IMG/VR virus record: IMGVR_UViG_3300031576_000196
Span: 1-35,263 of that record
From: a virus
Length of the DNA: 35,263 bases
Direction: 5' to 3' (one strand)
Shown here: positions 779 to 33,171 of the stretch, piece by piece
Position numbering within the stretch: position 1 is the first letter of the stretch
Layout of the letters: every line of letters begins with the position of its first letter
Program-made: the position numbers and the translations under genes
Notes under the pieces: generated by a model
What the model was told of the DNA's origin: nothing
Databases searched by the model: none
What the model saw: only the letters and a program-made list of their open reading frames with translations

Positions 779-2093
779 GTCCGCAGTGAGATTTATTAGG
801 TTTATAACAAGGCTGCTCTGCGTGCTGCTGTTGTGTGCGCCCGTCGAAGCGTCCCGGCTTTTCACCACCGGTTTCGAGACCAACGACTTTACCGCGACCG
901 AGTGGGACACCATCGCAGATGGCGCGCCTACTATCGCTACCACGTCCGGGTGCTCGCCGACAGTAAACTCCGGAACCTACGTCATGCGCGCCCTCCAGGG
1001 CGCCACAGCGGCGCAGAACTACGTGCGCCGCAACTTCTCGGCAGCGAAAACAACGGGCACAGTATCGAAGCGGACCATGATGTGCATCGCGGACTTGCCT
1101 GACACCTTGCCGCAAAGCGTCTTCATCTGGAGCAACGCCAACGGCCTGACCACGGGCAGCGGCCCGGTGCACGTCCGCATCATCACCGGGCCGAAGCTCA
1201 GAATCCGCAACCAGCTTACCGGTACCGACACTGACGGTACTACCACCCTGAACCTGAATCAGTGGTACCGGGTGGAACTGAAAGTGACGCTGAGCGACAC
1301 GACCGGCTTGATTGAACTGAGGCTGAATGATGCGGTCGAGGCCAGCCAGACGAACGTTGACACCCTGGACGGCACGGCTGGGTTCAATCGCTTCTTCCTG
1401 GGCGTGGGAGCAGGGAACGTCGGCTCCACCTCCGCCAACTACGACGTGTTCTTTGACGACATTGCGGTGAACGATGAGACCGGAACTTTCCAGACCAATT
1501 ATCCCGGAAAGGGTAAGACCTTTATGGTCAAGCCGACTTCCGACAACACCGTGGCCTGGACCAAGACCGGGGCCAACTGCTCCGCAACCACCAATACCGA
1601 CTGCGTGGACGACCAGCCGGGCACGCCGGACGATCTCTCGGGCTACACCACCATCGGCACCAACGGCACCGTGGACCGCTTGAACAAGACCGCCTTGGGC
1701 GCGGAGGTCCCCTCCGACGCTGACATGATCCTGATTGATGTCTACACCCGCTTCGGCGCGTCCGGTTCGACGGGTACGCGGCTCTGCAGGATTGACCTGT
1801 GGGACGATGTGGGCACCCAGACTTCCGGCATTGATACCGGAACAGGCTGCGACGGCACCGCCGACACCTGGGCGCTGAACCGCATCGGCCCCACCAACGA
1901 CCACCTGGTCTTTGACTTGGGCACGCGCTCCAAGGCCACGGTGAACGACGCTGACTTCGACATCGGCTACACCAACCGCTCCGCTCACAACAACCGCGTG
2001 ACCTCGGAATGGGGCAACGTGGAATGGACCGAAGCGCCGCCCGCGCCTGCCTGTGTCAACGCCTTACTGCTGCTGGGCGCTGGATGTAACTAA
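765..2093 (+). CDS. Secreted/virion LamG-like (concanavalin A-fold) adhesin
   Basis: A 442-aa protein. The start is set at the ATG at 765, which overlaps the previous stop; the open frame further upstream is only a shadow of the previous gene. Residues 9-30 form a Sec-type signal peptide (RFIRFITRLLCVLLLCAPVEA). Residues about 31-245 read like a jelly-roll carbohydrate-binding domain: F.T..FE..D, then LNQWYRVELKVTLSD, IELRLND and a FFDDIAVNDETG strand, as in LamG and polysaccharide-lyase-like folds. A second beta-rich part follows (about 250-440) and ends in a Pro/Cys-rich tail. The gene lies just before the lysis genes, so a host-surface or glycan-binding appendage is likely. The signal peptide is unusual for a structural phage protein. 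The exact family is uncertain. Confidence 0.6.
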   Translation: MPSTESAVRFIRFITRLLCVLLLCAPVEASRLFTTGFETNDFTATEWDTIADGAPTIATTSGCSPTVNSGTYVMRALQGATAAQNYVRRNFSAAKTTGTVSKRTMMCIADLPDTLPQSVFIWSNANGLTTGSGPVHVRIITGPKLRIRNQLTGTDTDGTTTLNLNQWYRVELKVTLSDTTGLIELRLNDAVEASQTNVDTLDGTAGFNRFFLGVGAGNVGSTSANYDVFFDDIAVNDETGTFQTNYPGKGKTFMVKPTSDNTVAWTKTGANCSATTNTDCVDDQPGTPDDLSGYTTIGTNGTVDRLNKTALGAEVPSDADMILIDVYTRFGASGSTGTRLCRIDLWDDVGTQTSGIDTGTGCDGTADTWALNRIGPTNDHLVFDLGTRSKATVNDADFDIGYTNRSAHNNRVTSEWGNVEWTEAPPAPACVNALLLLGAGCN

Positions 2094-2110
2094 TACGGGC
2101 GACCACGAAC

Positions 2111-2311
2111 ATGGACTATCTCACCAACCTGACACTGGTGCTCAGCTTGCTGAATATCGGCATCTCCATCGGAACGCTGCTGACCACGCTGCGCTACCAC
2201 GGCCGCGACATCCGCGAACTGAAAGCCGGCCGGCGAGAGGATGTAAAAGTCCAGCAGGACCACGGGGAGAGAATCAGTTACTTGGAAGCCCGCCAAGGCA
2301 AGCAGCGGTGA
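2111..2311 (+). CDS. Small one-TM protein, holin-like or hydrolase partner
   Basis: A 66-aa protein. Residues about 6-27 (LTLVLSLLNIGISIGTLLTTL) form one transmembrane helix. The remaining 38 residues are charged and probably helical or coiled coil (RYHGRDIREL...ERISYLEARQ). Its stop overlaps the GTG start of the cell wall hydrolase (GTGA at 2308-2311), which implies translational coupling. Position and topology suit a holin or a membrane partner of the endolysin. The sequence is too short to name a family, and a non-lysis membrane protein is possible. Confidence 0.65.
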   Translation: MDYLTNLTLVLSLLNIGISIGTLLTTLRYHGRDIRELKAGRREDVKVQQDHGERISYLEARQGKQR

Positions 2312-2751
2312 ACCTCTCCTACAGCGAATGGCTCCTGGCGCTGTGTCTCTGGCGGGAAGCGCGCGGCGAAGGCGAAGCCGGGATGCGGGCCGTAGGGCAT
2401 GTGATACGTAACCGGGTATTCGCGGGACAAGGGGACTGGATTACGGTGATCACCGCTCCCTTGCAGTTCACCAGCATCAATCCGCCCAAGAGCAAGGAAG
2501 GCTGGCCCAAGGACGCGCAGACAGTACGCTTCCCCCAGAATGACGACCTACGCTGGCTCACCGCCACACAATTGGCCCACGCCATCTTCGCCGGCCAGGA
2601 TGAAGACCCCACGGGCGTGGCACTGTACTACGCCAACCTCGCCAACATTGACCCGGGAGGCTGGTTTGAGAGAACCATCCTGGGGAATCCCGCCAAATAC
2701 CCGCAAAGTGCTGTGATCGGACGGCACAGCTTCTTCCGCGAACTCTCCTAG
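2308..2751 (+). CDS. Cell wall hydrolase, SleB-like endolysin
   Basis: A 147-aa protein starting at a GTG inside the GTGA overlap with the upstream small membrane protein; the longer frame back to 2053 only shadows the previous genes. Near the N-terminus WREARGEGEAGMRAVGHV is the hallmark of the SleB/CwlJ cell wall hydrolase domain, with Glu17 as the expected catalytic acid. It continues into VIRNRV and later ALYYANLANID and FFREL, typical of the domain end. Established role: cleavage of peptidoglycan glycan strands, here for host lysis. There is no signal peptide, so release would depend on a holin. Its TAG stop is shared, through the palindrome CTAG, with the stop of the convergent gene on the other strand. 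Confidence 0.85.
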   Translation: MNLSYSEWLLALCLWREARGEGEAGMRAVGHVIRNRVFAGQGDWITVITAPLQFTSINPPKSKEGWPKDAQTVRFPQNDDLRWLTATQLAHAIFAGQDEDPTGVALYYANLANIDPGGWFERTILGNPAKYPQSAVIGRHSFFRELS

Positions 2752-3021
2752 GACTCACGATCTCTTCCCCAACTCCTTCGGGGGCTGGGCGGACGCGACT
2801 TCTTCCCCTCCTTCATCACTTCCTGGATGCGCGTTTGGGCCTGATGGACGGCAACCCGGCGGAACCAATCTTCGTTGTCAAAATGACTTCCTTCCCATGG
2901 GGCAGTGGCATTCCACGCTGCAATCTCGGCCAACAATAGTTCCGCCTGCCGCAGCAGTTCGCGGTCGGTTGGCTTCAGTGGCTGCGGGGAATCGTGGTCG
3001 AAACTGCATCCACCAAAACAT
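2748..3021 (-). pseudogene. Small helical phage protein, frameshifted near its start
   Basis: The last gene of the minus-strand operon. The coding-like frame (PLKPTDRELLRQAELLLAE and onward to WGRDRES) has no start codon; it runs back in frame to the TGA stop of the gene upstream. An ATG overlaps that stop (TGATG, ATG at 3021) but reads another frame. The interval is 274 nt, which is 3n+1, and removing one T from the TTTT run just after the ATG (3015-3018 on the plus strand) gives a single frame beginning MFGGCSFDHDSPQPLKPTD. I therefore read it as one small gene of about 90 aa with a one-base insertion. Alternatively the frame starts at the TTG at 2936. Function unknown. Confidence 0.5.
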
Positions 3022-4211
3022 CACTCCTCCTTCTGCGCCGCTAGGCGGGCGCGCGCACGAATTGCCCCAGCGATCTCAATGTCTGCATCCGCCTGTCCAG
3101 CACCGAACACGTCATCCTTGGGCAGCATCTTGTTGTGATAGCAATTGGCGAGTTCTGCACACGCTTCCCGTTCCGCCTCCACGGCCTCGCGGATGCATTG
3201 GCGAGCGAAGTCGCGAAGGAAGTGTCGCAGGGAACCTTGATCAATCTGAACCAAAGAGATTTTGTGCGCCGCGCCGATGGTAAGTGGGTCGGGGAACAAG
3301 CGGCTTGTCACACAACCCATGTGGTGGGCTTTCGTAATCCCGGTTCCGTCCCTGTGCGCGAATCGCAGACACCAATGCGAAGGGTCACCGCTCAGGGAAT
3401 CAGTTGGCTCACCACAAAAACTACATGGGCCATCGTCAGTAGGCACTGGCGCTGTGGCGGGGGAGGAGCCGGAGAGGGCGACTTCGCACGCTTCACGGGC
3501 AGCTTCAATAAAGCTGGCGTCTTTCGGGTTATCGCATACAGCAGCGTTCACAAGACGCGCAACCGAGCCAAGCGCCTCCCTCACTCCCTGTAGCTCGCGG
3601 CGGGCGGCGTCACGCTCATCCAAAGATTCGTTCAAAGCTGTATCCAGCCTGGCTTCCTCAATGCGCCCTACGGCGGCTTCGGCTGAGAGATCGCGGGTGG
3701 ACTGCCGTGCGCCAATTAATTGCTGCTCCAGTTCCGCTGCTCGCTGGCGTAGAGCCATGACCGCTTTCCCTACGTCACTCCCAGCCTTGAGTTCGAGAGC
3801 ATTGGCGATTACGTCAAGCGTGTCGCGCAGGGTCGCACATTCGTCAACTAAGTCACGAGCGTAGCTTCCTAGTTCTTCTTCCGTCCACTTCGTGCCCTCC
3901 GGCACGACACAGCCTGCAATACCCTTGAGGTAATGGTGCAGGGCTGCGTTCTCGGAGGCGGAGCGGTAGGAGGCGTAGGCTTCCAGCATCCGACACAGAT
4001 ATTCGCCGTCGTAGGAGAATGGAATGACATCAGGCCATCTATCCAGCCACTCCCTTGCCGTCTGCGGCGCTTGGCGGGGCGCGGACGTGGTGAACGACGG
4101 CTTCGGACATGGGCCAGAATAACCGTGGTACTTGAACATTTCTTCGCCGACAGGCATCGGCTCCCCGCAGAGTTCGCAAACGCTAACTGACTTCGTTCCG
4201 TCAGCCATCAC
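3021..4211 (-). CDS. Zinc-knuckle and coiled-coil phage protein, function unknown
   Basis: A 396-aa protein. Start is the GTG at 4211 (GTGA overlap with the gene upstream) or the ATG one codon later. It has an N-terminal zinc knuckle (CELCGEPMP...GPCP, residues about 12-35), a central helical or coiled-coil region (about 120-230, LRQRAAELEQQLIGARQ), a second Cys motif (CSFCGEP, about 261-267, followed by WC, H and C residues) and a C-terminal helix of the EREACAELAN...IAGAIRAR type. That C-terminal signature is common in small accessory proteins of temperate phages (Ea22/Eae-like). No enzyme motif is seen. I would call it an early-region accessory protein, perhaps nucleic-acid or protein binding. 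Confidence 0.7.
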   Translation of the reverse strand: MMADGTKSVSVCELCGEPMPVGEEMFKYHGYSGPCPKPSFTTSAPRQAPQTAREWLDRWPDVIPFSYDGEYLCRMLEAYASYRSASENAALHHYLKGIAGCVVPEGTKWTEEELGSYARDLVDECATLRDTLDVIANALELKAGSDVGKAVMALRQRAAELEQQLIGARQSTRDLSAEAAVGRIEEARLDTALNESLDERDAARRELQGVREALGSVARLVNAAVCDNPKDASFIEAAREACEVALSGSSPATAPVPTDDGPCSFCGEPTDSLSGDPSHWCLRFAHRDGTGITKAHHMGCVTSRLFPDPLTIGAAHKISLVQIDQGSLRHFLRDFARQCIREAVEAEREACAELANCYHNKMLPKDDVFGAGQADADIEIAGAIRARARLAAQKEE

Positions 4212-4453
4212 TTCCCTCCCTTGGCCCGGTGCTCGGCGGCGCGCCGCTCAAGTTCGGCTACGCTAACCAGAGCACTTTTACGCTTTAGGATGCCGGTCAC
4301 CACTTCCTCCAGCGCCTCCGCCTTGGCGCGGACGATGAGCGAGGCCACAGCCTCGACAGTGGCGTCCGACTCGCCAACGCCAGTGAAAGCATCCGGATAG
4401 CAAGTCGTCGCAATCTTGTGCGCTTCCACCTTCACGTCAATCCGGTCACCCAC
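4208..4453 (-). CDS. Small helical protein, function unknown
   Basis: An 81-aa protein with ATG at 4453 and a stop overlapping the next gene (GTGA at 4208-4211). The sequence is charged and mainly helical (ATVEAVASLIVRAKAEALEE, then VSVAELERRAAEHRAK). It sits in a run of tightly packed early genes that overlap each other by a few bases, which supports translation. No recognisable family and no Cys clusters. Confidence 0.65.
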   Translation of the reverse strand: MGDRIDVKVEAHKIATTCYPDAFTGVGESDATVEAVASLIVRAKAEALEEVVTGILKRKSALVSVAELERRAAEHRAKGGK

Positions 4454-4643
4454 GGCACACCCTCCGTTTCAGTAACTTAGAAAGCGGCAGAGTGACAATG
4501 ACAGGCGAAAAGAGAATCGGGTCTCCGATGTCATCAAGAGGACGCACGTAGATTTTTAACGTCTTCCCAGAGCGTGAGAAATATCCCCAAGCCTCCGCCC
4601 CGCTCTTCGTTCGCAACTTCGGAATCCAGCCCTTGTCAGCCAT
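4446..4643 (-). CDS. Small protein, function unknown
   Basis: A 65-aa protein, ATG at 4643, overlapping the next gene by 8 nt. A Trp/Tyr-containing beta-type sequence (GWIPKLRTKSGAEAWGYFS, KTLKIYVRPLDD, then PVIVTLPLSKLLKR) suggests a small beta-rich fold. Operon position and overlap support expression. Family not recognised. Confidence 0.6.
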   Translation of the reverse strand: MADKGWIPKLRTKSGAEAWGYFSRSGKTLKIYVRPLDDIGDPILFSPVIVTLPLSKLLKRRVCRG

Positions 4644-4657
4644 CTTCTCCCTCCCCG

Positions 4658-4785
4658 TTATCCGCTGCGCCTCTGGAGCACAGCAATCTTGATTTTGGCG
4701 GCGACCAGTTCACGGAATAGTCGGTCATTCGTTTGGCGAATTAGACGGATTACATCTAGAGCACGTCTGTCGCCAACTCCAACAT
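4658..4785 (-). pseudogene. Small helical protein, probably frameshifted
   Basis: The gap between the HNH gene and the next gene holds a convincing coding frame (ALDVIRLIRQTNDRLFREL, then VAAKIKIAVLQRRSG and TAA at 4658) with no start codon. It is in frame with, and directly behind, the TGA of the HNH gene. An ATG ten bases after that TGA (4785) starts MLELATDVL and hits TAG. The interval is 128 nt (3n+2), so one missing base would join MLELATDVL to DVIRLIRQ. I read it as a roughly 42-aa helical protein with a one-base deletion. Readthrough of the HNH stop is the alternative. Confidence 0.4.
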
Positions 4786-5155: not shown

Positions 5156-5257
5156 CTAACTACCTGATTCTGCCACTGATTCCCCGGTTTCGTCCGGGTT
5201 TTCCTGCTGGCTACTGCTGCTGTCTTCTCCTATAGAGAAGGAAAAACTACACGGCAC
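5156..5257 (-). CDS. Possible 33-aa acidic Ser/Glu-rich ORF
   Basis: A GTG at 5257, just inside the 3' end of the helicase-methyltransferase gene, opens a 33-aa frame with a strongly hydrophilic, acidic and Ser-rich sequence (GEDSSSSSQQENPDETGESV). The frame ends at a TAG three bases before the HNH start. Composition is coding-like and the packing suits the operon, but the peptide is short, low-complexity and unknown. Confidence 0.3.
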   Translation of the reverse strand: MPCSFSFSIGEDSSSSQQENPDETGESVAESGS

Positions 5258-7856
5258 TTACTTCCTCGGCGGTGCCTTCTAAATCGAATAGCCGGGGCAC
5301 ATTGACGGTGCTTTGGGCGGTGCGTAGGTAGGCTATGCCATCGGCGAAGTAGCCCGGATTTAGCTCCACCCCGATCGCTTTCCGTCCAAGGTTGACCGCA
5401 CAGTAGGGCACCGTCATTAAGCCAGCGAAAGGATCAAAGACAGTTTCCCCATTCATGGAGAACTGCGTGACCACGCGGTTGACGATGTCGAACTGCAAGG
5501 GGCACAAGTGCATCTGCTGGCCGCGCCGCGCCTGGATCATGTTCAAGGTGCGGGCGCGCATGACATCCGTCCACACGTCAGGATGCCAGCTCTGGGGCTG
5601 CAAGAGCATGAAGGTTGCCGGGAGGAGGCTTCCCGCTAGGCGACAGGAACACTCTTGGCAGCATTTATCGCCGGAATGAATGTGGCCACAGTGACGGCAG
5701 CGCTCCAGTGATTCGCTCAGAGCAACATGATGCTCATGGTCATACACTTGGGTGAGGCTGTGCTGGCGGAACAGTTTGAAGATGCGCTCGTGCGGAATAG
5801 CAACTAGATCCCCTGGGACAAGCCAGCGGTTGCCGCTGGAGCGCATGAAACCGTGAGCGTCAATCTGCCAGCGCGAACGGGTGTAGTTTGCTTTCTGCTT
5901 CACGACGGGCACATCGGCATAGCCATTCGATACGTCCGTCGCTGGCTTGCGGAACAGGAGCAGGTACTCTGGCATCCCGGTGCCGATGCGGGAACCATCC
6001 TTGCACTGCTCTGACCATCCCAGACGATAGGTCTGATTATTCTCACGGACTACGTCGGTGACGATGGTTTTGCGCGCCAGGAAGCCGAAGCCGTGTTTGC
6101 TGTAATGGCGGATGCACTCGTCGGAAAAGGGATAGACCACTTGGAACCCCATCCCAGTGAGGCCGGAAGGTGTGACGCGGTCTTTGCAGTGCACGGCCAG
6201 GATGCGCCCGGGCTGGAGGACACGAAACAGATGCGGCGTAAGAAAGTCCATCTGCTCGAAAAAGTGCTGATTAGAGTCAGTGTGGCCAAAATCGTTATAC
6301 GAGGGTGTGTACTCGTACTGCGTGGAGAAGGGAATCGAAGTGATGATCAAGTGGACCGATTGGGAAGGCATGGCCGCAGTTTCGAGAACGCAATCATTGA
6401 GCACGGCGCTCCAACCGTCGCCCTGTTCCTCTTGGCGCTCCACGCCGATCTGCCTAGCCAGTTCTGAGGCAATCGCATTGGTCGCCAGACCGTACTGGTG
6501 AATGATGGCGGTCATCTGGCCGGTGAGTTGCTTGTGCTGTCCCCATTTCTGCTCCAGTACCCGGCGAATCTCACGTTCAGCTTCGGTATAGATCAGGTCA
6601 ATGCGGACCTGCTTGGTTTGCAAGAAGCGATGAATGCGGTGGACGGCTTGGATAAACTCGTTGAACTTGAACCCAATGCCCAGGAAGATGGCCCAAGAGC
6701 AAAACCTCTGAAAATTGCAGCCGGAACCGGCGATAACTGGTTTCGCGGCGAGTTCTTGGATTCCCCCATCGGAGAAGGCGATGATGGCTTGCTCCCGCTC
6801 TTCCAAGTCCTGCGAGCCGTACACGCTGACTGCTTCCGGGAGTGCCTTCTCGAGGGCATGGCGCTCGGCCTCCAAGTCATGCCAGAGGAGACGGTGCGCT
6901 GCTGGGTCAATGGCGCGCAGTTCGAGGAGCTTGGCAATCCTTCCTGCTAGCGAATCGCGCTTTTCACGGGCCGCACTCGACACTCCCAAAGCAGCATTTC
7001 TGAGGAGACGACCTTGGCCGCTGGGATCCGTGCCTGAATCACGATGGTCGCAAGGTAGTTCATGCCAGTTGACTTGTAACTCCGGCAACTCGTAGCCTTC
7101 ATCGGAATGGCCCAGGTCGCTCGGCCGCTGGAGGAAGACGGCCCAACTCGAAACCCATAGCCAGAATTCACGCGACTTGTGGGGATGCAAGGTGAGATGG
7201 TCGGCTTGGGTGCTATCGCGCTTAAAGAAGCGGGTCTTCGCTTGGCCTACGTCCATCACGTCGAGAAATGCTGCGTAAGCCAGCAGCTCAATAAACTCGT
7301 TAGGACTAGGGGTGGCTGTAGCTACAAACCGATAGGTGCCCGTGCCCTCAAAGAGCCGCATCATCTCCCGGAAGGTCTTTGTGCCGCGGAATCCGCGCAG
7401 AATTGCCGCTTCGTCTAAGGAGATGCCGGCAAACTGCCTGGGATCGAGTTTGGCATCACGCACGGTCTCGTAATTGGTGATGTAAAGCCCGGTTTCTGTG
7501 CACTCCTCTATGCGGCGCACAAAGCTGATGGCCAAGCCGACTTTGGCCGCGTCGCGGACGAACTCCTGTCGAACTCCGAGAGGGGCCACGATTAGGAAAC
7601 GGCCGCCAGTCTTTTCTGTGATGAGCCGGGCAACCTCAAGCTGCATGAGGCTCTTGCCTAAGCCGAAGGCAGCGAAGATGGCGGCGCGGCCCTGGCGGAC
7701 GGCCCAGCGCACTATCTCCCGCTGGTGAGGCTTTAGCAGGGGATGGATGGCGGAATCAGACACCGGGAAGCCGTGCTCCACAGAAAGCGCAGCCTTGGCA
7801 CGCAGGAAGGCTTGGTAGCTGGCGCGCGCGTCACCTTGGAGCAGTTGGTGGGTCAT
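5247..7856 (-). CDS. SF2 helicase-DNA methyltransferase fusion
   Basis: An 869-aa protein, ATG at 7856 (ATGA overlap with the DUF4326 gene). Residues about 35-440 form an SNF2/SF2-type ATPase: HQREIVRWA, Walker A FGLGKS (64-69), box II DEAA (148-151), TATPS (180-184) and motif VI QAVHRIHR (403-410). Residues about 480-850 form a beta-class amino-methyltransferase: catalytic motif IV appears as TSIPF (506-510) instead of the usual TSPPY/F, and the SAM motif FDPFAG (807-812) follows at the C-terminus, as expected for this class. Between them lies a zinc ribbon (CRHCG...CCQEC, 720-736). Probable role: N6-adenine or N4-cytosine DNA modification coupled to translocation, for protection against host restriction. 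The Ile in place of the first motif-IV Pro is notable. Confidence 0.88.
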   Translation of the reverse strand: MTHQLLQGDARASYQAFLRAKAALSVEHGFPVSDSAIHPLLKPHQREIVRWAVRQGRAAIFAAFGLGKSLMQLEVARLITEKTGGRFLIVAPLGVRQEFVRDAAKVGLAISFVRRIEECTETGLYITNYETVRDAKLDPRQFAGISLDEAAILRGFRGTKTFREMMRLFEGTGTYRFVATATPSPNEFIELLAYAAFLDVMDVGQAKTRFFKRDSTQADHLTLHPHKSREFWLWVSSWAVFLQRPSDLGHSDEGYELPELQVNWHELPCDHRDSGTDPSGQGRLLRNAALGVSSAAREKRDSLAGRIAKLLELRAIDPAAHRLLWHDLEAERHALEKALPEAVSVYGSQDLEEREQAIIAFSDGGIQELAAKPVIAGSGCNFQRFCSWAIFLGIGFKFNEFIQAVHRIHRFLQTKQVRIDLIYTEAEREIRRVLEQKWGQHKQLTGQMTAIIHQYGLATNAIASELARQIGVERQEEQGDGWSAVLNDCVLETAAMPSQSVHLIITSIPFSTQYEYTPSYNDFGHTDSNQHFFEQMDFLTPHLFRVLQPGRILAVHCKDRVTPSGLTGMGFQVVYPFSDECIRHYSKHGFGFLARKTIVTDVVRENNQTYRLGWSEQCKDGSRIGTGMPEYLLLFRKPATDVSNGYADVPVVKQKANYTRSRWQIDAHGFMRSSGNRWLVPGDLVAIPHERIFKLFRQHSLTQVYDHEHHVALSESLERCRHCGHIHSGDKCCQECSCRLAGSLLPATFMLLQPQSWHPDVWTDVMRARTLNMIQARRGQQMHLCPLQFDIVNRVVTQFSMNGETVFDPFAGLMTVPYCAVNLGRKAIGVELNPGYFADGIAYLRTAQSTVNVPRLFDLEGTAEEVSAV
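7834..7856. repeat. Direct repeat at gene starts (copy 1)
   Basis: CCTTGGAGCAGTTGGT plus GGGTCA (plus-strand sense) recurs with one mismatch at 8160-8181 and, shortened, at 8701-8718. On the minus strand each copy sits at the start of a gene and encodes the N-terminus MT[HD]QLLQG or MTHQL. The copies flank the DUF4326 gene and part of Dam, so they may mark cassette-like shuffling of these genes. Confidence 0.7.
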
Positions 7857-8181: not shown

Positions 8182-8719
8182 AAGTTTAGAACCCTTCACG
8201 CCGCTCAGCAGTATTGCCTTTCCTAGAAACGCTCCCGCAATTCCGCTAGTCTTGAGACATTCGACGTTATCAGCGCCATAGGCAATCAGCGTGCTTGGGG
8301 CAGTTCCGCTTTTTGGCGCGGCTGCCATCGGCGCGAAAGAAGGCAATCCTTCCATGCAGGAATAGGAAGGCGTCCCCTCGCCACACCACTTGCCATGGGT
8401 CTGTTTCAAGGCGACTGAATATCAACAGGATTCCGTTGCCGTGTTGTGCCATCTTCTCCGCCCACTTGCCGACGTGGGGACCATAGGGCGGGTTGCAGAA
8501 CACGCGGCCTTCCCACGGGAGGCTGAGGCCGTCTTGCGGCGGGCAGATTTGGCGTGCCGCGAGTTGCCAAGGAGAAGTCGGGCAGCCGCATGGGTCAAGC
8601 TCAAATGAGCCCAGCATCTCAACCAAGCGCGGCGGAGTCAGCCAGTCGTTCGTGATGCCTTCGCCGGGGCGTTCATGGCCGAATCCGTCACGCACTGCGA
8701 CTTGCAGTTGGTGGGTCAC
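8179..8719 (-). pseudogene. dam: Dam-type DNA N6-adenine methyltransferase, frameshifted
   Basis: GTG at 8719 (GTGA overlap with the gene upstream) opens a frame with the phage Dam signature: NDWLTPPRLVEMLGSFELD, then DGLSLPWEGRVFCNPPYGP (catalytic NPPY) and AFLFLHGRIAFFRADG. This frame stops at 8270. The expected C-terminus, APSTLIAYGADNVECLKTSG, continues in the +1 frame to a TGA at 8179 that overlaps the next gene's TTG (TTGA), so that end is the authentic one. The interval is 541 nt (3n+1); dropping one A from the AAAAA run in GCCAAAAAGCGG restores about 179 aa. Either an indel (mutation or sequence error) or, less likely, +1 frameshifting. The first 149 residues keep the catalytic motif. 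Confidence 0.8.
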
Positions 8720-17427: not shown

Positions 17428-17594
17428 CGAAGAAAGCATCCAATTACGACAACTTTGACCGCACCATGCGCAAGCTTATGGCGGTGTCACACAGAGAGCT
17501 AAAAGCCAAGCTGGATGCGGAGAAGCGCGCAAAAGCAAGAAAGCGGAAGGCTAAGAAACCTTCCGCTTCCCGCGCATCTGGCGGGGGTGCTTAG
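17424..17594 (+). CDS. Small basic DUF3800-partner protein (56 aa)
   Basis: ATG at 17424 overlaps the DUF3800 stop (ATGA). The sequence NYDNFDRTMRKLMAVSHREL, then KAKLDAEKRAKARKRKAKK and a SASRASGGG tail, is a short amphipathic helix followed by a very basic tail. I recall proteins of the form FDxTMRKxLxVSxxEL beside DUF3800 genes elsewhere, which supports a functional pair (partner, antitoxin-like or loading factor). Its TAG overlaps the transposase stop on the opposite strand. Confidence 0.75.
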   Translation: MTKKASNYDNFDRTMRKLMAVSHRELKAKLDAEKRAKARKRKAKKPSASRASGGGA

Positions 17595-18572
17595 AAAGCT
17601 GCTGTCGGTTGCGTTTCTCCAACCTTGCCAGTCAGTTCGGCATAGGTGAGGCGACGGCCCGCGATGTTGGCCAGCGACAGGTCGAAACGTTCGCGGTCGC
17701 TGAGGGGTTCGCGGTTCGGATGCTTGCGATTGTTGTAACGGAACATTTGCTCATCGAGGTAGCGGAACAAATGGAAAGGCTCGACACTAACGTAGGTTCC
17801 ATGAAGGCCGCGCTTAAGCAGGCTCCAGAAGTTCTCAAGGCCATTGGTGTGAACCTGTCCGCGAACGTAGCCTTCCGCATGGTCAATGACTTCATGCCCG
17901 TAGTTGTCAGCCAGTTCCTTGTAGGAAAGCAGCTTATCGGTGAATACCTGGGTGTCGGCCATGACGTGCTCGCGGACAATCTCGCACACAGCGGGAGCGC
18001 TACGATCCTTCGCCACCCGCGCCCGAATCTTCCCGCCCCGCTCAAGGACGCCAACAACCATTAGCCTTGTTGGCCATGCCGAGTTTCTTTGCCCGCTTGT
18101 GAAGATGGACGTTCCGAGCCTTCGCACCAATGAAGGTTTCGTCCACTTCGATTTGCTTTCCACCACCACCGAGTTTCCCGCCGAAGATGGACTGCATGGC
18201 CAGACGGATGCGATGCATCATGAACCAAGCACTCTTTTGGGTGACGCCGATAGTGCGGGCGACTTCGTAGCTGCTGACTCCGTTGCGGCAATTACAGAGC
18301 ATCCAGACCGCAGTAAGCCACTTATCCAGAGGAATGGGCGAGTCCTCAAAGATGGTTCCCGCCTTTGCGGAGAATTGGCGTTTGGCGTGGACGCTCTTGC
18401 ACTGCCACTTCCGCTGATTCTTGAGGAACACAACATCCTTGCGGCCACAGGCGGGGCAAATCACCTTACCGTTGGGCCAGCGAAGGCGAACCATGTACTC
18501 AAGAGAATTGTCGAGGTCACCGAAGTAGCGGATGGCCTCATGCAAAGTGTGGGGTTGTTTGTGGTGTTTCAT
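17591..18572 (-). pseudogene. IS1595-family transposase, frameshifted
   Basis: ATG at 18572. The N-terminus has a zinc ribbon (CPACGRKDVVF, WQCK) followed by FSAKAGTIFEDSPIPLDKW. The DDE domain begins with IEVDETFIGAKARN (first Asp), then, in the other frame, FTDKLLSYKELADNYGHEVI (second Asp) and GLENFWSLLKRGLHGTYVSV (Glu), ending with FRYNNRKHPNREPLSDRERF. The frames switch within GCTAATGGTTGTTGG near 18062; the interval is 982 nt (3n+1), and removing one A gives ...NKAMVVGVLERGGKIRAR and about 326 aa, a normal family length. Either an indel or a sequence error; family members are usually encoded by one ORF, so programmed shifting is less likely. Confidence 0.85.
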
Positions 18573-20337: not shown

Positions 20338-20368
20338 CTTCACAGAATCCGGTTCTGTGAAGTTTTTT
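20338..20368 (+). terminator. Intrinsic terminator, or recombinase-type inverted site
   Basis: CTTCACAGAA and TTCTGTGAAG are perfect 10-bp inverted arms around TCCGG, followed by TTTTTT. This is the classic terminator form closing the accessory cluster. Two 10-bp inverted arms around a 5-bp spacer also resemble a tyrosine-recombinase core site, and the recombinase ORF begins right behind it. Confidence 0.75.
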
Positions 20369-20909
20369 GATTTTGGAATGCCTTTCAAAAGAGCAACTTC
20401 GGGCGCTTCTGCAAGCGGCCAAAGCCTCTCGCCAGCGCGACTGGCTGATGATTCTGGTGGCCTTCTGGCACGGCCTCCGGGCTTCGGAAGTGGTTGGATT
20501 GACGCGGGATGCCATCCAGGACGGGATGCTCACGGTGCGCCGGCTGAAGGGCTCGAAGCGCACCGTACAAGCGCTGGTGAAGCGTGACGATCCCCTACTG
20601 GACGAGGCCAAAGGGCTTCTTGATTACACGTCCCAAATGCACGGCAATCAACTTCTGTTCCCGGTCACTCGAGAACGTTTCTGGCAGCTCGTGCAGCAGC
20701 ACGGCAAGAGCGCCGGCATTCCAAAACGGCTCTCGCATCCGCACATCTTGAAGCACAGCTTCGCCATGCAATTCATTCATTCCATAGGCATTGAGAACGT
20801 GCGGCAGTACCTTGGCCACAAATCCATTTCCTCCACCGGCGCCTACCTGAAAGTCAGCGACGCGGATGCCTCGGCGAGCTTGGAGCGTGCGCTTAAGGGT
20901 TCGGGCTGA
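20367..20909 (+). CDS. Minimal tyrosine recombinase (FimB/integrase-like catalytic domain)
   Basis: 180 aa from the TTG at 20367; TTG at 20373 is the only other close start because TGA at 20358 closes the frame upstream. The first codons overlap the T-run of the terminator. Catalytic residues: Arg38 (HGLRASEV), Lys61/64 (LKGSKRT), His126 and Lys129 in HPHILKHSFA where most members have HxLRH, His151 (YLGHKSISST) and Tyr160 (AYLKV). There is no N-terminal core-binding domain, as in FimB/FimE. Role could be integration, resolution or inversion; the Arg-to-Lys change in box II is unusual and may affect activity. Confidence 0.82.
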   Translation: MILECLSKEQLRALLQAAKASRQRDWLMILVAFWHGLRASEVVGLTRDAIQDGMLTVRRLKGSKRTVQALVKRDDPLLDEAKGLLDYTSQMHGNQLLFPVTRERFWQLVQQHGKSAGIPKRLSHPHILKHSFAMQFIHSIGIENVRQYLGHKSISSTGAYLKVSDADASASLERALKGSG

Positions 20910-29175: not shown

Positions 29176-29340
29176 ATGCGAGCCGCGATTCAACTCGCGC
29201 CGGATGAAGAAGGCAGACCGCTGGTGAGACTCTGGCCGGAGACTCCGGAAGAAGAACTGCTCGCACGTTTAGTGGATGGTTGCCCAGCCATCGCTTTTGA
29301 GTTCATGGTCCCACACTCCACAGAAGTCGAGGCCGATTGA
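29176..29340 (+). CDS. Small acidic protein (54 aa)
   Basis: ATG at 29176 to TGA at 29340, overlapping the gp10-like start (TGATG). The sequence IQLAPDEEGRPLVRLWPETP, then EEELLARLVDGCPAIAFEFM, is acidic and domain-like. It is divergent to the minus-strand Tat-like gene, from which it is 16 nt apart. Function unknown. Confidence 0.6.
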   Translation: MRAAIQLAPDEEGRPLVRLWPETPEEELLARLVDGCPAIAFEFMVPHSTEVEAD

Positions 29341-30782
29341 TGCAGCAGCCTGCCTTCATCGGACCGGCCTACCAGTTGGGGAGCGTTGCCGTGGACGCCC
29401 AGCAGTGCATCAACTGGTTTCCCGAAGTCAACGAGTTGGGCACCGGCAAGAACCAGGAAGTTGCGGCCTTGGTTCGTCGCCCAGGTCTGAAGAAGCTGGC
29501 CACCGTGAGCCCCGGCCCCTGCCGCGGCATGTGGGAGCGCACCTCGGGTGGCACCCGCCACATGGTTTCCGGCAACAAGCTGTTCGACATCACGGACAGG
29601 TTCAATCCGGTTGACAAGGGAACGCTCCAAACCTTGACTGGCCCTGTGGGCATGGCGGACAACGGCCTCCAACTGCTCATCGTGGATGGCCTGAAAGGAT
29701 ACGTGCTCACCTATGCCACGGGCGGCTTCCATACCATCGCTGATCCTGACTTCCCGCCGGCCACTCACTGCGCTTTCCAGGATCAATACCTCATCGTCAA
29801 CAACGCCGGGACGCGGCAGTTCATGGTCTCGGCACTGTCCGATGCGACCGACTGGGACACGCTGGATTTTGCCTCTAAGGAAGGCCTGCCGGACAACATC
29901 ACGGCCCTGGTTTCCGACCACCGGCAACTCATCCTTGGGGGTTTCCGCTCCACAGAAATGTGGGACAACACCGGCCATCCCGATTTTCCCTTCGAGCGCA
30001 ACAACGGCGCTTTCCTTGAACACGGCTTGGCGGCCGGCCACACCCTGAAGAAGTTCAACGAGTCGGTCTATGGGGTGGGCCGCTCCGAACACGCTGCCGG
30101 GATGGTAGGCCGGCTGGTGGGGTACAACCCCGAGCGCATCTCCACGGTCCCCCTGGAAACCGCCATCGCCGGCTATGGTGACCTGTCGGTGGCAACCGCG
30201 TGGGCGTATGAGTGGAAAAGACACCCCTTCTACCTCATTGATTTTGTCGGTTCCGCGACCACTTGGGTTTATGACGGCTCAACCGGACTCTGGCATGAGC
30301 GCAAGAGCATGAGCAGCGAGGGAGTGCTGGACCGCTGGCGCGCCCAGTACCACGTTTTTGACGGCGAGCGGCACCTGGTCGGCGACTACCAGAATGGGAA
30401 TTTGTACCAACTGGATGATGACACTTTGACCGATGATGGCCGTGAAATCTTCCGCCGCCGGCGCGCGCCGCATCTTTCCAATCAAGCTGAACGGCTGGTT
30501 TGCAGCCGCTTCGAGCTGGACATGGACGTAGGACGTGGCCCTATGCCGCACTTGCTTGCTCCCGATGGACAGCCCCGCGATCCCATGGTGATGCTGCGCG
30601 TCTCGAAAGACATGGGCAAAACTTGGGGCATGGAACGCTGGAAAAGCGCAGGCCGGGCAGGAGAAACCCGCAAGCGGGTCATCTGGGACCGCCTGGGCTG
30701 GGCCTACAACTGGACGTGGGAGGTCACTATCACTGACCCGTTCGCGGCCACGCTGATTTCCGCCTTTCCGAGGTTCTCCTGA
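29340..30782 (+). CDS. Packaged-DNA stabilization protein, P22 gp10-like
   Basis: 480 aa from the ATG at 29340 (TGATG overlap); a TTG one codon earlier is possible. The opening FIGPAYQLGSVAVDAQQCIN, WFPEVNE, and the repeated beta-propeller-like segments (TRHMVSGNKLFDITDRF, LIVDGLKGYVLTYATGGFHT, GERHLVGDYQNGNLYQLDDD) match gp10-like tail hub proteins. The end WTWEVTITDPFAATLISAFP is also typical. Role: stabilises packaged DNA and connects the portal and gp4 to the distal tail. Confidence 0.8.
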   Translation: MQQPAFIGPAYQLGSVAVDAQQCINWFPEVNELGTGKNQEVAALVRRPGLKKLATVSPGPCRGMWERTSGGTRHMVSGNKLFDITDRFNPVDKGTLQTLTGPVGMADNGLQLLIVDGLKGYVLTYATGGFHTIADPDFPPATHCAFQDQYLIVNNAGTRQFMVSALSDATDWDTLDFASKEGLPDNITALVSDHRQLILGGFRSTEMWDNTGHPDFPFERNNGAFLEHGLAAGHTLKKFNESVYGVGRSEHAAGMVGRLVGYNPERISTVPLETAIAGYGDLSVATAWAYEWKRHPFYLIDFVGSATTWVYDGSTGLWHERKSMSSEGVLDRWRAQYHVFDGERHLVGDYQNGNLYQLDDDTLTDDGREIFRRRRAPHLSNQAERLVCSRFELDMDVGRGPMPHLLAPDGQPRDPMVMLRVSKDMGKTWGMERWKSAGRAGETRKRVIWDRLGWAYNWTWEVTITDPFAATLISAFPRFS

Positions 30783-31327
30783 TGGCGCTGCCGCATCTTC
30801 CTGCGCCGCCCGACGATTTGGGAAGCGCGGCCGGAAAGCGCTGGATGCAACTGCTGTGGCGCAAGCTGGGAGAGTTCAGCGATGAGGCTCCTATCAAGGC
30901 AGCGAACATCACCGGCATCTTGGCCAGCGCCAACGCCGCGCCTGGCATCATCCGCAACCTGACCAATGACGCAACCATTGACTCCGTTGACGCGGGCGCC
31001 AGCGCCACGGTGCGCGTCTACGGTCCAGGGGGAGTGGGTTCCAACTGGAACCGCTATCGCAATTTAGCCCTGGCGGGCAGCCCTGCCGCAGTGCAATTCA
31101 CCGGCAAAGCCTACAGCACACGCTACTATGCGGCCTTGGATACGGTGACGCTCCAGTGGACCATCTCCACCCAGCTTAAGGATGTGACCGGGGACAACAT
31201 GGTGATCTTCTCCCTGCTGACCAAGGATGCTGGCGGAGGCGGAGGCGCGTCGGGGGGAGGAGCGTCCGCCGCCGGAGGCTCGGGCGGCGTAGGTGCTTCG
31301 GGCGGCGGTTACGGGATGCTGCTCTGA
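30782..31327 (+). CDS. Probable tail-associated protein with Gly-rich C-terminus
   Basis: A 181-aa protein, ATG at 30782 (TGATG overlap). An N-terminal helical part (AAGKRWMQLLWRKLGEF) is followed by a beta-rich domain (ATVRVYGPGGVGSNWNRYRN, AVQFTGKAYSTRYYAALDTV, VTLQWTISTQL) and a roughly 30-residue Gly/Ser/Ala tail (GGGGGASGGGASAAGGSGG). It is next to gp10, so a distal tail or fibre base component is likely. Family not recognised. Confidence 0.6.
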   Translation: MALPHLPAPPDDLGSAAGKRWMQLLWRKLGEFSDEAPIKAANITGILASANAAPGIIRNLTNDATIDSVDAGASATVRVYGPGGVGSNWNRYRNLALAGSPAAVQFTGKAYSTRYYAALDTVTLQWTISTQLKDVTGDNMVIFSLLTKDAGGGGGASGGGASAAGGSGGVGASGGGYGMLL

Positions 31328-31542
31328 TGTGCAAGGAAATCTCACGCAAGTTTCGCCCGGATCATCGTGACGTTGAAGTGGTCTACGAGGATTGCTTCGG
31401 AGTGCGCAAACTGCTCTACGTGGGACTCAGCCGGCCCACGCCTGTAGATGTGGAAGCCGAGATCCAGCGGGTGTTCCAGGAAGATGACCAGTTGACGGCC
31501 AACGTCAAGGCTGCGGTGGATGGATTGCATGTCAAACTCTGA
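31327..31542 (+). CDS. Small protein, function unknown
   Basis: A 71-aa protein, ATG at 31327 (TGATG overlap). Mixed sequence (FRPDHRDVEVVYEDCFGVRK, LLYVGLSRPTPVDVEAEIQR, VFQEDDQLTANVKAAVDGL). The acyl carrier protein gene begins inside its last codons. No family recognised. Confidence 0.6.
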   Translation: MCKEISRKFRPDHRDVEVVYEDCFGVRKLLYVGLSRPTPVDVEAEIQRVFQEDDQLTANVKAAVDGLHVKL

Positions 31543-31768
31543 GTGCTGCGACCGAGTGCGCCGAGTAATCGCCGAAGCTGCGGCTGTCTCTCTGGATGAG
31601 GTAACCACAGACAGCACGCTGGGCTCGCTGGGCCTGGACTCCTTGGAAACCGCGCAGTTAGTGATGGACATTGAGGATGCTTGGAACCTGGAAATAGCCG
31701 ATGCCGAGTTCAACCGGCTTACCACGGTGGGAGAACTTGTCCAATGGATGACCGCACAGACCGCTTGA
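31529..31768 (+). CDS. Acyl carrier protein (phosphopantetheine-binding)
   Basis: 79 aa from the ATG at 31529. It aligns well by eye with bacterial ACP: CDRVRRVIAEAAAVSLDEVT (helix I), DSTLGSLGLDSLETAQLVMD with Ser38 in the conserved DSL as the 4'-phosphopantetheine site, and helix III/IV IADAEFNRLTTVGELVQWM. Length is normal. Established role: carries acyl chains as thioesters after host phosphopantetheinyl transferase action. No fatty acid or polyketide enzymes are near; the only acyl-handling neighbour is the overlapping GNAT gene. An unusual gene for a virion module. Confidence 0.88.
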   Translation: MSNSECCDRVRRVIAEAAAVSLDEVTTDSTLGSLGLDSLETAQLVMDIEDAWNLEIADAEFNRLTTVGELVQWMTAQTA

Positions 31769-32256
31769 GCGGGAAAGTTGCTGAGGTGGTGGACAGTACC
31801 GACCGAGTCCGCGAAGCCGTAGAGGCCGACATCCCGCGCATCGTGGAGATGGGAATGCGCAGCTTGCGTGACGGGCCTTACGGTGAGCACATCGGCGCAA
31901 ATCCCGAGCACGGGAAAGCCTTCGCCGGGGACATGGTGCGCGGCCAAAATTCTATCGTCCTGCTCTATGAGCGCGGGGGGCGAGTGGAAGGCTTGTTGGC
32001 TTTCATCGTCTTTCCACACTTTTTTTCGGGCGAGCGCACGGCGCAGGAAATCATGTGGTGGGTGGAGCCGGAAGCGCGGAAGGGCAGTTCCTTCAGCCGC
32101 ATCCCCGCTTTCATGCTGTTCCGCGAAGCCGAGCGCCTGGCGAAAGAGATGGGAGCGATGCAGATGCAGTTTACCGCCCCCACGCCGGCCATCGGAAAGC
32201 TCTACGAGCGCGCGGGCTATCGCCAGATCGAAATCGGATACCAAAGGACTCTGTAA
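31744..32256 (+). CDS. GNAT-family acyltransferase
   Basis: 170 aa from the ATG at 31744, overlapping the ACP gene by 25 nt. GNAT-like order: an N-terminal VREAVEADIPRIVEMGMRSL helix, strands NSIVLLYERGGRVEGLLAFI, then EIMWWVEPEARKGSSFSRIP (strand 4 and the acyl-CoA loop, less canonical than R/QxxGxG/A), FREAERLAKEMGAMQMQF and a C-terminal KLYERAGYRQIEIGYQRTL, the typical GNAT end. Expected to transfer an acyl group to an amine; overlap with ACP raises the possibility that acyl-ACP is the donor. Phage GNATs near tail genes are not rare; the ACP pairing is. Confidence 0.78.
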   Translation: MDDRTDRLSGKVAEVVDSTDRVREAVEADIPRIVEMGMRSLRDGPYGEHIGANPEHGKAFAGDMVRGQNSIVLLYERGGRVEGLLAFIVFPHFFSGERTAQEIMWWVEPEARKGSSFSRIPAFMLFREAERLAKEMGAMQMQFTAPTPAIGKLYERAGYRQIEIGYQRTL

Positions 32257-32259
32257 ACC

Positions 32260-33171
32260 ATGCCAGCCATCAGTACAGGACTCGCCATCGGGTTAGGCGC
32301 CATTAGCGCCGGCACTTCGATTGCTGGTGGTCTCATCGCCCGCTCCGGTGCCAATCGCCAGGCGGAAGCGGCTGAGCGATCCTCGCGGGAAGCTGTTGCC
32401 GAAAATCGCCGCCAGTTCGATCTCACCCGTGCCGACCTGGCCCCATGGATTTCAACCGGCTCGGACGCGATTCGCACCCTGGGCTTCCTGCTGGGCTTGG
32501 GGCCGGATCCCAACCGAGCTTCCACGACTGCTGGCATCCCCAGCGGCATCCCTCCGGGCGGCATCCCCTTTGAAGGCGGGGAGCGGGACTTCCCGCGCGG
32601 CCCACGCGGGCCGCGTTCGCCCACGCTAGACTCAACGCTGGCCGGACCTGGCTTCCGCCAGTTCACGTCAACCGGCACCACGGGCCAGACCGTCCCAGGC
32701 GTCAACCTGCCTGCCGGTGACTTTGGCGCACTCAATCGGGACTTCACGCTGGCCGACTTTGAGGCCGACCCTGGCTATGCCTTCCGCTTGGCGGAAGGGC
32801 AGAAGGCGCTGGAGCGCTCGGCGGCCGCAGCCGGAGGGCTGTTTTCAGGCCGGCAGTTAAAGGACACCATCCGCTACGGGCAGGACTTTGCCTCAAATGA
32901 ATTAACCAACGCCTTCAACCGCTTCGAGCATAACCGCGCGGGCCGCTTCAACCGTTATGCGAACTTGGCCGGCGTCGGCCAGCTAGCAGCCACGGACTTG
33001 GGACGCTTCGGGGCGGACAACGCCCGCACCATCGGCGACATCATCATCGGGGGGGCGACCTCGGCGGCCGCCTCGCGCGCTGCCGGCAGCAACGCCTTGG
33101 CGCAGGGCATCACCGGGGGCATCGGCCAAGGGCTGAGCTGGTATCTGTTGAGCCAGTTGGGGAGGCAATAA
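32260..33171 (+). CDS. DNA ejection/internal virion protein
   Basis: A 303-aa protein, ATG at 32260. The N-terminus is Gly/Ala-rich and membrane-like (GLAIGLGAISAGTSIAGGLI), followed by a helical DNA-transfer-type segment (REAVAENRRQFDLTRADLAP, WISTGSDAIRTLGFLLGLG). A conserved FEADPGYAFRLAEGQKALER, AAAGGLFSGRQLKD element follows, common in podoviral DNA transfer proteins of this kind. The C-terminus is Ala/Gly-rich. Role: internal protein ejected to help DNA cross the envelope. Comparable in position to P22 gp7/gp20. Confidence 0.75.
   Translation: MPAISTGLAIGLGAISAGTSIAGGLIARSGANRQAEAAERSSREAVAENRRQFDLTRADLAPWISTGSDAIRTLGFLLGLGPDPNRASTTAGIPSGIPPGGIPFEGGERDFPRGPRGPRSPTLDSTLAGPGFRQFTSTGTTGQTVPGVNLPAGDFGALNRDFTLADFEADPGYAFRLAEGQKALERSAAAAGGLFSGRQLKDTIRYGQDFASNELTNAFNRFEHNRAGRFNRYANLAGVGQLAATDLGRFGADNARTIGDIIIGGATSAAASRAAGSNALAQGITGGIGQGLSWYLLSQLGRQ

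Follow-up and report, generated by a model that had tools for sequence, protein, structure and literature searches.

An acyl carrier protein gene beside the ejection-adjacent GNAT gene of a P22-like short-tailed phage

In the phage studied here, a gene for an acyl carrier protein (ACP) lies immediately upstream of a gene for a GNAT-fold acyltransferase, within the block of genes that encodes the virion. The locus raises the question of whether the two proteins form a dedicated pair, in which the ACP would supply the acyl group that the GNAT transfers, or whether a carrier gene has come to lie beside an enzyme that functions without it. The sequence studied, which we call the window, is the complete IMG/VR virus record IMGVR_UViG_3300031576_000196, 35,263 bases in length. 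It carries the P22-like virion block of a short-tailed phage, in which the adaptor (PF11650/PHROG 637), Hc3/gp10 and the ejection protein were recognized by profiles, and the terminase, portal, scaffold and coat genes were assigned from position and from similarity to relatives. The features of the interval between the neck and the ejection genes are the following.

29337–30782, + strand: head-closure protein Hc3, P22 gp10-like, left boundary of the slot (PHROG 578, 1.3e-111; 66% identity to L002)
30782–31327, + strand: 181-residue Gly/Ala-rich protein, function unassigned (open reading frame; weak PHROG match, 0.0066)
31327–31542, + strand: small gene for 71 residues, overlapping the downstream ACP gene by 14 nt (open reading frame)
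31529–31768, + strand: ACP, 79 residues, with Ser38 in LGLDSLE (PF00550, PHROG 5934, structural model)
31640–31642, + strand: TCC codon of ACP Ser38, the predicted phosphopantetheine attachment site (sequence; alignment of 19 viral ACPs)
31744–32256, + strand: GNAT-fold acyltransferase of PHROG 1249, 170 residues (PHROG profile, structural model, structural matches)
32077–32106, + strand: codons of GNAT residues 112–121, the cofactor-binding loop RKGSS-FSRIP (alignment of 28 sequences)
32260–33171, + strand: ejection protein, P22 gp7-like, right boundary of the slot (PHROG 598, 8.2e-41)

The ACP gene, the GNAT gene and their adjacency are confirmed, with matches far beyond chance. A sequence-only reading of the window had placed the two genes between tail and ejection genes, and the profile matches of the flanking genes, Hc3 on the left and the ejection protein on the right, bear this out. 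The same reading had described the phosphopantetheine site GLDSLE as intact, which it is: Ser38, within LGLDSLE, is invariant across the window ACP and 18 other viral ACPs, as are L34, G35, D37, L39 and E49, in an alignment where the window protein is 29–37% identical to the others. The open reading frame, for which an in-frame ATG at 31520 is a possible alternative start, matches the Pfam PP-binding family PF00550 (6.2e-13; 49.2 bits against a curated cutoff of 20.8) and PHROG 5934, “acyl carrier protein” (2.8e-11). Its AlphaFold2 model (pLDDT 90.7) has the four-helix ACP fold, with a helix at residues 38–52 and the DSL serine at the start of helix II, and the best match in the PDB is the Thermus ACP 1x3o (TM 0.94). 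The closest NCBIfam models are those of general bacterial ACPs (3.2e-16), yet the protein scores under their curated cutoffs, and it falls under those of the AcpP equivalogs of fatty acid synthesis as well (TIGR00517, 55.4 versus 70.45 bits; best PRK00982 subfamily, 58.9 versus 71). The protein is AcpP-like, with carrier motif and fold intact, and a holo form is predicted. No phosphopantetheinyl transferase (PF01648) was detected anywhere in the 35,263-nt window, in a search in which control genomes were positive, and charging by the host AcpS is therefore the most likely route to that form.

The neighboring open reading frame matches the PHROG 1249 acetyltransferases (4.8e-14), and its model (pLDDT 90.5) has a clear GNAT fold with 660 PDB matches at E up to 0.001; N-acetyltransferases lead, and the matches listed are mostly acetyltransferases. 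Among the matches listed, both its structural and its profile neighbors are acetyl-CoA N-acetyltransferases. The label “GNAT” is correct, and acyl transfer is predicted from sequence and model, but the protein is divergent, because its match to Pfam Acetyltransf_1 (0.019) is below the cutoff. Pfam returned Acetyltransf families alone for this protein, with no match to the toxin-activating acyltransferase profile (HlyC/CdiC type). A strictly invariant catalytic glutamate was considered and set aside: all 28 aligned sequences have Glu102, but only 74 of 104 do in a wider set.

The cofactor loop of ordinary GNATs binds the pyrophosphate of CoA. In the window protein this loop reads RKGSS-FSRIP-A, with five extra residues that are absent from the 27 aligned relatives, and the block is modeled at lower confidence (78). 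Most of the 104 distinct family sequences have a loop of the form R-x-G-x-x-G/A; the stricter motif R/Q-x-x-G-x-G/A is found in 6 of the 104 and is missing from the window GNAT. An acyl-ACP donor would presumably have no need of the contact between this loop and the CoA pyrophosphate.

How tightly the two genes are joined depends on where the GNAT begins. The overlap of 25 nt given in the sequence-only reading holds if translation starts at ATG 31744, which is preceded by a GGGAGAA motif. Residues 1–20 of the resulting protein are modeled with low confidence and are missing in relatives, whose GNATs begin near residue 21; a start at GTG 31786/31789, which would abolish the overlap, is therefore possible.

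If the two proteins work together, their genes might be expected to stay together in related phages. When either the ACP or the GNAT was used as a single query, scans of IMG/VR gave no match, and the ACP had no tblastn match in 50,697 phage records; profile-based scans were needed to find relatives of either. We anchored IMG/VR scans on Hc3, the GNAT, a second GNAT clade, the ACP and the coat protein, and ran profile searches across the 344 loci fetched; these include redundant and fragmentary contigs, and the counts describe the fetched set rather than frequencies. The GNAT family is present in 186 loci. Of these, 77 also have a detected ejection protein, whose gene starts no more than 300 nt from the end of the GNAT gene in 75 of the 77 cases. 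PHROG 1249-type GNATs were seen directly before a gp7-like ejection gene in the window and in L094–L096, L264–L319 and L334–L342. An ACP occurs together with the GNAT in two independent contigs only, the window and IMGVR_UViG_3300017917_001353 (which appears as L202, L249 and L320), and in 182 of the 186 loci the profile search found no ACP nearby.

The closest relatives of the GNAT are in L094, L095 and L096 (53, 49 and 49% identity). There, the order is Hc3, one or two other genes, the GNAT and the ejection protein, with one more gene before the ejection protein in L096. In L095 and L096 a gene for 82–83 residues directly precedes the GNAT and overlaps its start by 4 bases; the 71-residue gene of the window, compared by position only, occupies the corresponding place in the slot. 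The complete records of L094, L095, L096, L025, L100 and L112 were also searched, and no ACP was found in any of them. Compared with these loci, the window looks like the pattern expected of a single-gene insertion in its lineage. The adjacency is thus not kept in related phages, being absent from L094, L095, L096 and the 182 loci above, and the two genes occur independently of each other, the outcome that had been named beforehand as counting against a dedicated pair. Such a pair is not supported as a conserved module; the arrangement looks like a rare ACP add-on beside a conserved virion-block GNAT rather than a conserved two-gene system.

Other comparisons extend the survey. The nearest capsid relative, L002/L328, has a coat protein 77% identical to that of the window, but it is no guide to ACP conservation because its sequence ends ~100 nt past Hc3, and the IMG/VR scans found no sister phage of >60% identity that covers the interval from Hc3 to the ejection protein. 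Among the 25 commonest Pfam families surveyed, the neighbors of ACP genes in viral contigs are mostly not GNATs, although isolated GNAT neighbors would not show at this depth of listing. A scan of bacterial genomes returned two distant GNAT relatives only, neither with an ACP nearby.

It is less simple to account for the second contig. L202 is a 102-kb contig from a different kind of phage, in which an ACP gene lies between two GNAT genes (1648–4712). The ACP gene overlaps the upstream GNAT gene (Acetyltransf_1, 5.9e-11) by 4 bases and is separated by 13 nt from the downstream one, whose product matches PHROG 1249 (2e-5) and has the ordinary cofactor loop of the family. The contig also encodes a fatty-acid desaturase (PF00487, 2.2e-10) and, elsewhere (L345, 174–473), a 99-residue AcpS-like protein (PF01648, 2.3e-4, below cutoff); possibly, judging from this match, the phage brings its own carrier-charging enzyme. 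In L241, a relative of this locus, the corresponding two genes adjoin each other and no ACP separates them, and the L202 ACP therefore looks inserted too. In L243 (record G010, a 159-kb phage), whose GNAT is 86% identical to that of L202, the ACP gene is at 122317–122544, about 33 kb from the GNAT gene.

With both genes, their folds, the conserved position of the GNAT and the absence of the ACP from relatives as observations, the explanation we favor, at about even confidence, is that a single AcpP-like ACP gene was inserted before a standing GNAT gene and that its host-charged product is an auxiliary carrier rather than an obligate partner of the GNAT. The GNAT would be a standing member of the neck-to-ejection slot in P22-like short-tailed phages; in nearly all of them it would work without a phage ACP, with a CoA thioester or host acyl-ACP presumably as its donor. 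In the window phage, the ACP gene would have entered just before it, and the two are probably cotranscribed, presumably late, and may be translationally coupled. Once charged, in all likelihood by host AcpS, the ACP would most likely act by itself late in infection, as an auxiliary carrier that works on the host acyl-ACP pool. Two observations count against insertion as the whole account: the adjacency in L202, which pure chance placement predicts poorly, and the insertion in the cofactor loop, found in the window GNAT alone among the 28 aligned. Together, the second independent adjacency of an ACP and a PHROG 1249 GNAT and the unique loop insertion are a hint, drawn from sequence comparison, that keeps a link between the two proteins alive.

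That link would be strongest in a dedicated pair, which we regard as unlikely although it survives better than the other alternatives. Here, the GNAT would take an acyl chain from the host-charged phage ACP and attach it to a component of the virion. The adjacent ejection proteins are the most plausible targets, and acylation would help these to enter the membrane, by analogy to the ACP-dependent toxin-activating acyltransferases or to FeeM. The sequence-only reading had also proposed acylation of a host-surface component, or a late-stage diversion of host acyl flux, as things that a phage ACP might allow. Lipidation of delivered proteins by ACP-dependent acyltransferases has precedents in HlyC, CyaC and CdiC (PMC8510554), and FeeM is a precedent for an acyltransferase that depends on acyl-ACP (PMC4897644). 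The window GNAT would share an acyl-ACP donor with all of these and, with the toxin-activating group, also the lipidation of a delivered protein; it differs in that Pfam does not match it to the toxin-activating group, and neither this group nor FeeM is among the top structural and profile matches listed, which are acetyl-CoA enzymes. The tight spacing and overlap of the two genes in one operon argue for a pair, as do the independent adjacency in L202, with a desaturase and an AcpS-like protein on the same record, and the five-residue insertion in the loop that would contact the CoA pyrophosphate. Against it, the ACP is missing from 182 of 186 GNAT loci, the GNAT of L202 has retained an ordinary loop, and its close relative in L243 has its ACP far away. 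A more specific form of this proposal, that the ACP is the dedicated donor for a GNAT that fatty-acylates an ejection protein and has partly given up its CoA loop, with a similar pairing having arisen independently in an unrelated larger phage, seems to us improbable.

Slightly more doubtful still is a non-enzymatic reading, in which the GNAT-fold protein takes the place of T7 gp13 and helps to assemble the virion, while the ACP is a small partner with a structural or regulatory role of the kind that ACPs have in some non-lipid complexes. In T7, gene 13 occupies this position, flanked by tail gene 12 and by gene 14 for an internal protein, and the annotation of a gp13 relative says that gp6.7 requires it for incorporation into the virion; the interrupted cofactor loop of the window GNAT and its Pfam signal below cutoff would also fit a protein that has no catalytic role. 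T7 gp13 (PF11090) is likened to the GNATs by position only, however, and a comparison of the GNATs with the gp13 family profile was not significant (12 columns, probability 8%). Moreover, most members of the GNAT family keep the R-x-G-x-x-G/A loop, as expected of enzymes, and the matches of the ACP model in the MukBEF and Nfs1 complexes merely reflect the likeness among ACPs. As a sequence homologue of the GNATs, T7 gp13 was not established with either one sequence or a seven-member profile.

Least probable, in our estimate, is that the ACP has no role and is carried along neutrally or in decay: it has no close phage homologue, and its third-position GC is 0.66 as against ~0.76 in most neighboring genes (though 0.68 in the adjoining small gene), but its reading frame is unbroken, no motif residue has been lost, and 29–37% identity to the other aligned viral ACPs does not obviously indicate a fresh capture.

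The adjacency combines known parts in a rare way and is not a new kind of system. Phage ACP genes have been reported, with functions described as unclear (PMC5463345, PMC8224337), and some acpP genes of roseobacter prophages lie between fabG and fabF (PMC8224337). With the known phage ACPs (PHROG 5934; roseobacter prophage acpP, PMC8224337; ORF 32 of Erythrobacter phage vB_EliS-R6L, PMC5463345) the window ACP shares a small stand-alone form and an intact DSL serine, but it lies in a virion block before a GNAT, whereas other viral ACPs mostly have other neighbors. Similarly, the PHROG 1249 GNATs of Pseudanabaena phage Pam1 and Roseobacter phage SIO1, annotated as acetyltransferases, belong to the same family and the same virion-block region, but they have no ACP neighbor, and the window GNAT has a longer N terminus and the loop insertion. 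In the L202 locus, too, an ACP gene immediately precedes the gene for a PHROG 1249 GNAT; the differences are the kind of phage (102 kb), the second GNAT upstream, and the desaturase and AcpS-like genes on its record. In the literature searched, which was incompletely covered, we found no paper dedicated to a phage-encoded ACP and none that combines a phage GNAT or acetyltransferase with ejection proteins, and no reported function for the ejection-adjacent GNAT of short-tailed phages. An ACP beside this GNAT, together with a second independent case, thus offers a concrete route to asking what the donor and the target of the GNAT are. Even if the ACP were only a passenger, the comparison would still show that the GNAT is a conserved part of the slot between neck and ejection genes.

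The window contains other genes that bear on the biology of the phage. A tyrosine recombinase (PF00589, 3.7e-21) is encoded just upstream of the terminase (20367–20909, + strand), which suggests that the phage is temperate. An IS1595-type transposase lies at 17591–18572 on the minus strand, split into two overlapping open reading frames, a zinc ribbon (18045–18572) and a DDE domain (17594–18169); this looks like a frameshifted insertion sequence within the phage record. The transposase matches many groups, with ~42% identity or less among the matches listed, and does not point to a host. Also on the minus strand, a protein of 869 residues (5247–7856) has a C-terminal N6/N4 DNA methylase domain (PF01555, 5.6e-13) and a long N-terminal region that appears helicase-like by eye. 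A Dam-type methylase is encoded at 8270–8719.
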